A DNA stretch of 64,000 nt, taken from contig JAFZQB010000012.1 in assembly GCA_017552385.1 (NCBI GenBank), forward strand, positions 1 to 64,000, read 5' to 3'. Both the position numbers and the translations under genes were made by a program. The DNA is from Candidatus Saccharimonadota bacterium (GTDB lineage: Bacteria > Patescibacteriota > Saccharimonadia > Saccharimonadales > Saccharimonadaceae). Positions 1-57,790 of the stretch are shown here, piece after piece. Position 1 is the first letter of the stretch; every line of letters starts with the position of its first letter. The notes under the pieces were generated by a model. It was given only the letters and a program-made list of their open reading frames with translations. It was not told the origin of the DNA and made no database searches.

Positions 1-131
1 ACCGCCCGTCAAACCATGAGAGTCACCAACACCCAAAGTCCGTCTAGGCGGCCTAAGGTGGGGGAGATGATTGGGGTTAAGTCGTAACAAGGCATCGGTA
101 CGAGAACGTGTCGATGGATTACCTCCTTTCT
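1..131 (+). rRNA. 16S ribosomal RNA, 3' end (partial)
   Basis: The gene enters from the left edge. The universal 3' segments are visible: ACCGCCCGTCA at the start, AAGTCGTAACAAGG near 80-92, helix 45 at 94-115 and the anti-Shine-Dalgarno core ACCTCCTTTC near 121-130. The helix 45 arms pair over 9 bp (94-102 with 107-115). Its loop reads AGAA rather than the usual GGAA, and the two adenosines that KsgA dimethylates are kept. The exact 3' end is inferred from the position of the anti-SD sequence. Confidence 0.97.
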
Positions 132-299
132 TGAGAAGGAATAGATGCGCACGAAAGCGAAAGCTCGCGTGTAGCTAGGTCGGTCGTAATTGTGTAGTTG
201 TTAAGCTTAGTACACAATTTTATCCTTAGGGATGCGACCTCAAGCTTAAAAGTCACGGCTGAAGATGAATTAATTGCACAACTGAATGGTTAACCAGGA
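132..299 (+). other. 16S rRNA 3' trailer, no spacer tRNA
   Basis: This is the transcribed spacer between the mature 16S end and the terminator. It contains no tRNA and no start of a 23S gene. It can fold: AGGTCG near 177 pairs with CGACCT near 235, and TTGTGTA near 191 pairs with TACACAA near 211, giving a nested hairpin that may serve in processing. No coding capacity was seen. Confidence 0.6.
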
Positions 300-55975: not shown

Positions 55976-56857
55976 TTAGTTCAGCGTCCAGCAATTGGCG
56001 CCTAGAGAGCGAATGACGCCTTTTATTTCTAGCATAGTGATGGTTTGGTTAAAAGTAGCGACATTCATTTGAAGTTTTTCCATAATGATGTCGCCGTCAC
56101 GTATATCTTCTGATAAGAGGTTTAAGATCGCCCTTTCCTCTTCATTGTCGGCAAACAGAGAAATCTGGGCCTTTTTGGCTTGTTTTGAGCGGGTCCTTGT
56201 ATTGGGGAGTAAATATTTGATGAAGTCTTCGACTCCTAGATAAGGATTGGCGCCGCTCATGATGAGACGATTACAGCCTTGGCTAGTTTGGCGATTGATA
56301 TCACCTGGGACTGCGAAAAGATCTTTTCCCTGTTCCAGAGCATGAGCTGCGGTGTTAAGAGAACCGGATTTTTCTCTTGCTTCTACGACTACGACGACAT
56401 CGGACAGGGCAGATATGATGCGGTTGCGATAGAGGAAACTGGTTCGATGATCCCCTAAATCGTCGCCAATGTGATACTCACTGGCAACCACGCCTCCGTT
56501 CTCTATAATTTTCTCTGCTAAGGCGATGTGGCTTGTTGGATAGATGCGCTCAATCTCCGTTCCAAGGATGGCGATGGTTTTGCCACCGCCATCGAGACAG
56601 CCCTGGGCGGCGATGGAGTCGATGCCATAGGCTAACCCAGAGACAACAATGATTCCTCTTTCGCCGAGTGCTTTGGCGAGTTTATAAGCGACTTCTTCTC
56701 CGTATCGGGTGTTCTTTCGAGCGCCAACTATCGCGACAGTCTTGACTCTATTTTTCGGCCAGTTACCATAATAATACAATAATTTAGGCTTAAGCGCAAT
56801 GGATTCTAACCCCTGTAAGTATTTGCTATCTTGGGGCCGAATTTCATTGATTTTCAT
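55976..56857 (-). CDS. dprA: DNA processing protein DprA
   Basis: Loads RecA on incoming single-stranded DNA during natural transformation. The Rossmann fold shows VAIVGARKNTRYG near residue 41, VVSGLAYGIDSIAAQGCLDGG near 72 (the conserved SGxAxGID core), FLYRNRIISALSD near 142 and GSLNTAAHALEQG near 163. A C-terminal winged helix (about 225-290) is present. At 293 aa it lacks an N-terminal SAM domain. With RecJ, RecO and the VirD4-like ATPase it fits DNA uptake as a lifestyle trait. Confidence 0.94.
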   Translation of the reverse strand: MKINEIRPQDSKYLQGLESIALKPKLLYYYGNWPKNRVKTVAIVGARKNTRYGEEVAYKLAKALGERGIIVVSGLAYGIDSIAAQGCLDGGGKTIAILGTEIERIYPTSHIALAEKIIENGGVVASEYHIGDDLGDHRTSFLYRNRIISALSDVVVVVEAREKSGSLNTAAHALEQGKDLFAVPGDINRQTSQGCNRLIMSGANPYLGVEDFIKYLLPNTRTRSKQAKKAQISLFADNEEERAILNLLSEDIRDGDIIMEKLQMNVATFNQTITMLEIKGVIRSLGANCWTLN

Positions 56858-56876: not shown

Positions 56877-56905
56877 TTGACATTTGTTAGTTAGTGTAGT
56901 ATAAT
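56877..56905 (+). promoter_or_regulatory. Perfect-consensus promoter of the 335-nt RNA
   Basis: TTGACA (56877-56882), a 17-nt spacer and TATAAT (56900-56905); the only exact consensus pair I noticed in the window. Confidence 0.88.
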
Positions 56906-56911
56906 AGTCGC

Positions 56912-57246
56912 AAGTTAGAGCTTTTATGAGCTCTAAACTGTACCTAAATAAACTATAACAGATGTTACGCTATTAGTGTAGCAAATGTTGCATGCTTTTG
57001 AAACCCCTCGGACTTTTAATTTCTTCTTCAATGGTTTTAAGTCTTATAAGTATTACCTCCACTTTGAGAGGATCTTCGAAGGCATAGCAACCCCCATAAC
57101 CGGCGGGCCCCTATTTTGTGTGAGGTGGGTCGCGCTTCCGGGGCTTCCCCGGTATCAAATAAGAAGCGTTGTGGGGTGCCAAAAGGCTCCTTGGTGTAGG
57201 ATAGGTGATGCCCACCCTTACCTATCCTACACCAAGGAGCTTTTTG
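56912..57246 (+). ncRNA. Candidate abundant structured RNA gene, about 335 nt
   Basis: The unit runs from a perfect promoter to a very strong terminator. The 5' end forms TTAGAGCT/AGCTCTAA near 56916-56937. The middle is AU-rich with a CCTC/GAGG arm near 57056-57074. The 3' half is GC-rich: GGCA and CCCCcATAAC (near 57083-57104) pair with GTTGTGGGG-TGCC (near 57166-57179), closing a junction that holds a CGCTTC/GAAGCG arm with an inner CCGGGG/CCCCGG hairpin. The last hairpin has 21 perfect base pairs (57186-57206 with 57220-57240), extended by A-U pairs. I see no RNase P core (GAGGAAAGUCC), no tmRNA ends and no clear SRP GGAAG/AGCAGC motif, so the class is unknown. Confidence 0.7.
57181..57246 (+). 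terminator. Unusually long terminator hairpin
   Basis: A 21-bp perfect stem with a 13-nt loop, extended by one G-U and four A-U pairs, then TTTTTG. Confidence 0.88.
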
Positions 57247-57271: not shown

Positions 57272-57790
57272 TTAGACTCTGTCTCGAATAATTGCAGCTA
57301 CTTTCGAAAGGATGTTGGGAAGTTCTTTTTTCTCTGATTCGTTGAATTTGGATAGTACAAAGTCAACGTCACCTATTTTTTGGCGGAGCTCATCATTTCC
57401 TGTTCCTAGACGTAAACGCGGAAAATCTTCGGTGTCTAGATGTTGGATAACTGATTTTAAACCGTTGTTGCCGCCGGCGGAGCCATGTAGGCGCTCGCGG
57501 ATCTCGCCGAACTTTAGATTGAAGTCGTCACAGATGACAAAGATGTTGTCTGGAGTAATTTTGTAGAAATCAGCAAAAGATCGAACAGCGGTGCCGATGT
57601 CATTGTAGAAGGTTTGAGGTTCGATAAAAATGGTTTCGCCTTGTTTTTTCCATAGAGCATTAAATTTCTCGTGTGGTTCCCACTCGAGATTGTTCACTTT
57701 GAAATAAAAATCTAATGCTAGAAAGCCAAAGTTGTGGCGTGTAAAGTTGTATTCTGATCCTGGGTTGCCAAAGGCGACAATAAGTTTCAT
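57272..57790 (-). CDS. pth: Peptidyl-tRNA hydrolase
   Basis: Recycles peptidyl-tRNA released from ribosomes. Conserved residues: Asn in FGNPGSEY near residue 8, catalytic His in RHNFGF near 20, Asn in TFYNDIG near 64, Asp in CDDFNLKFG near 89 and GSAGGNNGLKSV near 105. The protein is 172 aa. The start at 57790 is supported by TGGTATAAT ending 6 nt upstream (57797-57802), which makes the message leaderless. A much longer upstream frame overlaps the divergent rarA and is not real. Confidence 0.94.
   Translation of the reverse strand: MKLIVAFGNPGSEYNFTRHNFGFLALDFYFKVNNLEWEPHEKFNALWKKQGETIFIEPQTFYNDIGTAVRSFADFYKITPDNIFVICDDFNLKFGEIRERLHGSAGGNNGLKSVIQHLDTEDFPRLRLGTGNDELRQKIGDVDFVLSKFNESEKKELPNILSKVAAIIRDRV

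Follow-up and report, generated by a model that had tools for sequence, protein, structure and literature searches.

Positions 56912 to 57246 of the window, by which we mean the whole stretch of 64,000 nucleotides analyzed here, constitute a real structured RNA gene that has its own promoter and terminator, occurs in a single copy, and does not code for protein. We have little doubt that this RNA represents a new conserved class absent from Rfam 15. Taking identity and inferred mechanism jointly, the explanation that we favor by a narrow lead over doubt is that of a conserved structured RNA acting at the ribosome via the loop of one of its hairpins, P6. The elements referred to below are as follows.

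55976-56857, minus strand: dprA, divergent upstream neighbor of the RNA, found at the same place in 189 of 229 loci (some genomes enter this count with duplicate records)
56877-56905, plus strand: promoter TTGACA-17-TATAAT, with the -35 element at 56877-56882, a 17-nt spacer, and the -10 element at 56900-56905
56912-57246, plus strand: RNA gene, its transcript limits inferred from promoter and terminator
56913-56939, plus strand: P1, the 5' hairpin, whose sequence varies while pairing is kept (alignment of 28 homologues and individual folds)
56940-56959, plus strand: J1, conserved stretch ACCUAAAUAA, with an unpaired probability of 0.74-1.0
56963-56983, plus strand: P2 hairpin (28-homologue alignment and individual folds)
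56988-57003, plus strand: P3, 5' strand (28 homologues: pairing in 98% of cells, double changes at 6 pairs)
57010-57045, plus strand: P4/P5 region, a variable hairpin missing in many other genera
57048-57064, plus strand: P6 hairpin AAGU-AUUACCUCC-ACUU, loop at 57052-57060, stem covarying
57074-57090, plus strand: P3, 3' strand, with a conserved bulged A (28-homologue alignment)
57092-57100, plus strand: P7, 5' strand (99.8% of cells paired, double changes in 5 of 9 pairs)
57101-57111, plus strand: J7, CGGCGGGCCCC, near-invariant within the genus
57118-57135, plus strand: P10 hairpin GUGUGA-GGUGGG-UCGCGC, loop at 57124-57129
57138-57152, plus strand: P8 hairpin CCGGGG/CCCCGG, with a compensatory change from G-C to U-A in locus L016
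57168-57176, plus strand: P7, 3' strand, pairing with 57092-57100
57181-57245, plus strand: terminator hairpin with loop GAUGCCCACCCUU at 57207-57219, CCCACC at 57211-57216
open frame ending at 57272 (plus-strand scale), minus strand: pth, downstream of the RNA

The original prediction had proposed an RNA with a perfect promoter, a GC-rich junction domain, and a 21-bp terminator stem, and all three were recovered. The promoter matches TTGACA-17-TATAAT at 12 of 12 positions and is the sole exact copy in the 64-kb window, where shuffled sequences lead one to expect 0.03; the junction domain corresponds to the P7 domain (57092-57176); and the terminator combines a U-run and a 13-nt loop with a stem in which one G-U and several A-U pairs flank 21 contiguous Watson-Crick pairs. 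The description of this stem as exceptional holds at this locus but does not carry over to the class, since its length is a local trait and the stem is short in many homologues; the conserved part of the terminator is its loop, not the length of its stem. A TTGAC...-10 site also lies upstream of 222 distinct homologous RNAs, a set chosen for having such a site, and the spacing is 17 nt in 218 of them. That the RNA is highly expressed, as originally suggested, is an inference from the promoter alone, and its transcription as a free-standing molecule is likewise inferred, there being no expression data. The fold of 56912-57246 reaches -137.4 kcal/mol (z = -9.1), a value that none of 100 dinucleotide shuffles attained, although the terminator supplies much of this energy. 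A protein-coding gene was ruled out because reading frames are not conserved across 28 homologues, 3 of which lack any frame of at least 25 codons.

Compensatory changes support P3, P4, P5, P6, P7, P8, and the inner stem of the terminator, and were seen for P10 once distant members were added. Among 28 members of the genus, the 57-pair core has 92.3% of cells paired and a covariation score of 0.203, compared with 0.121 for shuffled and at most 0.096 for slid alignments, and 23 of its 57 pairs show double changes (12.5 in shuffles). For the P7, P10, and terminator helices, an alignment of 49 diverse sequences gave 98.7% paired cells and a score of 0.414 (0.165 shuffled, at most 0.063 slid), with covariation at all 7 pairs of the terminator inner stem. 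The 40 distant homologues yielded 95.5% paired cells, a score of 0.320 versus 0.095 shuffled, and double changes in 50 of 57 pairs (14 of 16 pairs in P3), but this alignment was fitted to the model and hence leans toward it. The elements kept across members are P3, J1, the P6 hairpin, the P7 helix, and the terminator loop; P5 and a large part of the P7 interior can be replaced. A GGGCCCC/GGGG pairing considered for the P7 interior was abandoned, since it is broken in L016, whereas a local hairpin at that place covaries.

BLAST detected homologues in 33 of 36 genomes of the genus and in none of 24 genomes from the order's other families. With a covariance model built on the 185-position core (R1), single-copy matches were found in 148 of 393 genomes, the weakest with an E value of 4.5e-5. 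A second model, restricted to the P7 domain plus terminator (R2), had a single match in each of 261 of the 393 genomes of the class, all within the same order: counted among the matches listed, these were about 232 of 241 sampled members of the window's own family, along with 29 genomes from 13 other families. Some of the nine family members missed by R2 are fragmented assemblies. In a phylum-wide sample of 380 genomes, all 27 matches fell within the Saccharibacteria order, and the roughly 340 sampled genomes outside the order held no homologue. The homologous RNAs span about 250 to 370 bases. Almost all named records that carry the pattern GAGGTGGGTC-N48..78-GATGCCCACCC belong to Candidatus Saccharibacteria, TM7 oral taxa 350 and 351 among them. 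The pattern also occurs on contigs labeled Clostridiales, Methanoregulaceae, Nomurabacteria, Deltaproteobacteria, or Acidimicrobiia (L162, L173, L194, L196, L215, and L236), which are possibly misbinned or mislabeled Saccharibacteria.

The original prediction had recognized no core of RNase P, tmRNA, or signal recognition particle (SRP) RNA, had left the choice between a new class and a very divergent housekeeping RNA, and had named a significant Rfam hit as grounds for refutation. No such hit emerged: none of 4,227 Rfam 15 families reached its gathering score in the window or in 20 distant homologous loci, 10 further homologous loci gave no Rfam match up to an E value of 0.5, and at E ≤10 the window yielded only subthreshold matches, mostly microRNA-type hairpins on the terminator. 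These searches support the new-class branch. RNase P RNA (RF00010) and tmRNA (RF00023) gave no match at the locus, and their genes were found elsewhere, as had been proposed for checking, at G000:C2:22643-23001 (229.7 bits) and G000:C2:26100-26456, respectively, G000 being the window's own genome. SRP RNA (RF00169 and RF01854) was excluded on other grounds. The genome has neither SRP RNA nor Ffh; SRP RNA was not found in 12 genomes, and Ffh above the curated cutoff was absent from the same number of genomes and from all 287 of a phylum sample, while all 14 controls were positive. With SRP absent, the conserved RNA is not SRP RNA. SRP loss thus appears phylum-wide in the 287-genome sample. We dropped it as a clue to the function of the RNA, because Ffh is missing from that entire sample while the RNA is limited to one order, and because SRP loss has already been published for Parcubacteria (PMC4508563). 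The open-access literature that we searched (subscription papers lay outside the search) describes no RNA of this kind from Saccharibacteria, and the main text of three large RNA discovery surveys does not mention the group. We call the class new because it fails every catalogued family tested and because no open-access report of it was found.

The proposed link to the ribosome starts from the P6 loop. Its sequence, AUUACCUCC, is invariant in 28 of 28 genus homologues, equals the 3' tail of the organism's own 16S rRNA (the anti-Shine-Dalgarno) over nine bases, and stays 57 to 98% unpaired across the computed ensemble. The 16S gene of the window ends in GGAUUACCUCCUUUCU, as it does in 26 other Saccharibacteria, and the tail GGAUUACCUCC is the same in 27 of 27 Saccharibacteria checked. 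Nearly all members of the class carry UUACC(C)UCC on a small hairpin. Some near relatives have UUACCUCC as the P6 loop, and most other genera have (C/U)UACCCUCC, with one extra C and covarying closing pairs while the 16S tail is unchanged; the loop deviates more in L085, L092, L096, and L107. Exact nine-base identity is thus limited to the window's genus and, in part, its near relatives. J1, for its part, reads ACCUUAUACCCCCUAUUCUAAC in most other genera. Regarding the rRNA itself, the 16S tail (window 1-135), GGAUUACCUCC, has U where Escherichia coli has C in GGAUCACCUCC, and this position falls in the 16S sequence read by Era in other bacteria. Downstream of the 16S gene, the 64 kb contain no 23S or 5S rRNA, tRNA-Ile and tRNA-Ala lie on the strand opposite the 16S gene (1928-2091), and the rRNA genes look unlinked in this genome.

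A second conserved feature is the terminator loop. Every one of the 127 RNAs recovered with BLAST or covariance models, a set in which a few genomes are represented twice, contains CCCACC in this loop, although the surrounding stem changes freely, and each contains GGUGG upstream of it. In the window's genus, the GGUGG partner is the P10 hexaloop GGUGGG; in about 15 RNAs without the P10 site, the motif lies at the 3' flank of P7 instead, as GGGUGG(G) (e.g., L106, L125-L127, L129-L132, L134, L135, and L138-L140). Judged from sequence, this suggests a kissing contact with a movable partner. The suggestion rests on complementarity and relocation and not on covariation; the pair is invariant, and base-by-base covariation is therefore lacking. 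Nor is the GGUGG count fully independent, because the GGUGGG columns sit in the search models. These RNAs often contain short G-rich motifs (GGGTG in 51 of 127 and GGGGT in 62 of 127).

Under the mechanism we propose, the 3' terminator hairpin would belong to the functional fold, with its CCCACC loop kissing GGUGG(G) in the P7 domain, either in the P10 loop or, in other lineages, at the P7 flank, and this contact would lock the RNA into a compact shape. The compact fold may then display UUACC(C)UCC in the P6 loop as an exact or approximate mimic of the 16S tail. In this way the RNA would act in trans, either as a competitor for Shine-Dalgarno sequences or by drawing off a factor that recognizes the tail. 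Candidates for such a factor are Era, a GTPase, and 30S-platform proteins, but no protein partner is known. For function, we lean toward a stable housekeeping RNA that acts in trans at the ribosome or on translation via its 16S-tail-like loop, although taken by itself this role seems somewhat unlikely, and the fuller version, a new class of housekeeping RNA that carries a 16S-tail copy on a hairpin and controls ribosomes, with the terminator hairpin as a tertiary-structure clamp, we hold to be unlikely.

An alternative that remains possible, though short of probable, is that the RNA is a protein-binding housekeeping RNA or ribonucleoprotein scaffold, with a lineage-specific protein as the partner of its CCUCC loop and no involvement of the ribosome. 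Order-wide presence in a single copy, invariant loops, and freely covarying stems are the pattern of a stable ribonucleoprotein, the loop in most genera is CCCUCC and not the exact 16S tail, and no recurrent mRNA target came to light (see below). However, the partner protein has not been identified, and the likeness between loop and 16S tail, an exact match of nine nucleotides within the genus, would have to be a coincidence. A protein scaffold role is at least as likely as a ribosome-linked role, and the present data cannot separate the two.

It is also conceivable, but in our judgment quite unlikely, that the RNA is a multitarget antisense small RNA that blocks ribosome binding sites via C-rich loops in the manner of staphylococcal RNAIII. 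Three C-rich motifs are predicted to be unpaired (CCUCC in P6, ACCCCC in J1, and CCCACC in the terminator), the fold leaves the P6 loop and J1 mostly unpaired, and a GGAGG Shine-Dalgarno sequence precedes 116 of 714 predicted open reading frames of the window's genome. We screened the start regions of this genome (G000, complete) with the P6 loop, J1, the P5 loop, and J7; those of a complete genome from another genus (G192) with the P6 loop, J1, and J7; and those in 400 kb of a third genome (G164), ranking orthologues in all three by the P6 loop plus J1. In both complete genomes, the best duplexes were no stronger than those given by shuffled segments. The strongest match in G192 lies at the start of an rseP-like gene (G192:C1:697108, minus strand), where TTGGAGGGTAG-ATG could pair with the P6 loop of the same genome over about 12 bp; the G000 orthologue does not share this match. 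An apparent agreement on a site-2 protease target (rank 1 in G192, rank 2 in G000) fell, because the true G000 orthologue of the G192 gene scored only -4.3. DNA repair-like genes, by eye lexA, dinB, and ssb, were among the top G164 matches but did not appear in the other genomes, and we put them down to multiple testing. Orthologue ranks correlated weakly, with a rho of 0.13 between G000 and G192 and of 0.28 for G192 and G164, a pair with almost the same loops; shared Shine-Dalgarno strength would give correlations of this kind. No mRNA target recurred among orthologues in G000, G192, and half of G164. Since no gene was strong in all of G000, G192, and the G164 portion, a specific conserved mRNA target is not supported, while weak or lineage-specific targeting is not excluded. 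Moreover, the loops are far more conserved than typical small RNA seeds.

We consider it very unlikely that the RNA is a highly divergent 6S RNA regulating RNA polymerase. Its conservation is housekeeping-like, and no 6S RNA (RF00013) was found in the window's own genome; however, the window lacks a 6S match even at E ≤10, and the RNA folds into multiple domains without a long rod and central bubble. A weak 6S-like match exists in another family of the order (L037; G037:C51:16563-16716, 32.4 bits, below the cutoff), but this is a different locus, which adjoins the RNase P RNA gene. Less credible still is a cis-acting leader or attenuator, such as a riboswitch or T-box-like element, for a neighboring gene. 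The strong terminator would fit, and we counted in its favor GGUGGGUC, which we take to resemble a T-box antiterminator sequence loosely, with no tool result in support; yet there is no Rfam T-box or riboswitch match, and gene arrangement led us to reject the idea, because the downstream gene varies between genomes while the RNA persists, in the window that gene (pth) lies on the other strand, and dprA is divergent upstream. No dprA was found beside the RNA in L108, L113, L114, L144, L146, and others; lineages without adjacent dprA have pth upstream in the same orientation and often topA downstream. Finally, an artifact consisting of a repeat hairpin and a chance promoter, to which the long perfect terminator stem might point, is practically ruled out, being already refuted by order-wide homologues with compensatory changes.

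Saccharibacteria are ultrasmall parasitic epibionts with genomes of roughly 0.6 to 1.4 Mb. These reduced genomes, which lack even the SRP, still keep the RNA as a single copy in sampled members of many families of the order, and its retention under such genome reduction means that it is probably important. Several hundred genomes gain a likely core gene in their annotation, and, if the 16S-tail-like loop is functional, the RNA would be a new way of regulating translation in trans; cultured oral strains make the RNA testable.

Among known systems, 6S RNA (RF00013) shares the housekeeping distribution and the free-standing gene, but the new RNA does not match it and has another architecture. The raiA-motif RNA (ModT; PMC11706538) and other orphan large bacterial RNAs are likewise highly structured, widely conserved, and of unknown mechanism at discovery, but they belong to different bacteria, and the new RNA has no Rfam match to any of them. 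From general knowledge, staphylococcal RNAIII and other small RNAs with C-rich loops resemble it in being long RNAs whose C-rich loops can pair with Shine-Dalgarno sequences and in having a terminator hairpin that is functional, as is inferred for the new RNA; in contrast to them, the new RNA has no Rfam match, no coding part, and no recurrent targets found, and is conserved across an order. As for the 16S 3' tail, the P6 loop AUUACCUCC equals GGAUUACCUCC over nine bases; unlike that tail, the loop is held in a closed hairpin of a separate RNA and carries an extra C in most genera.
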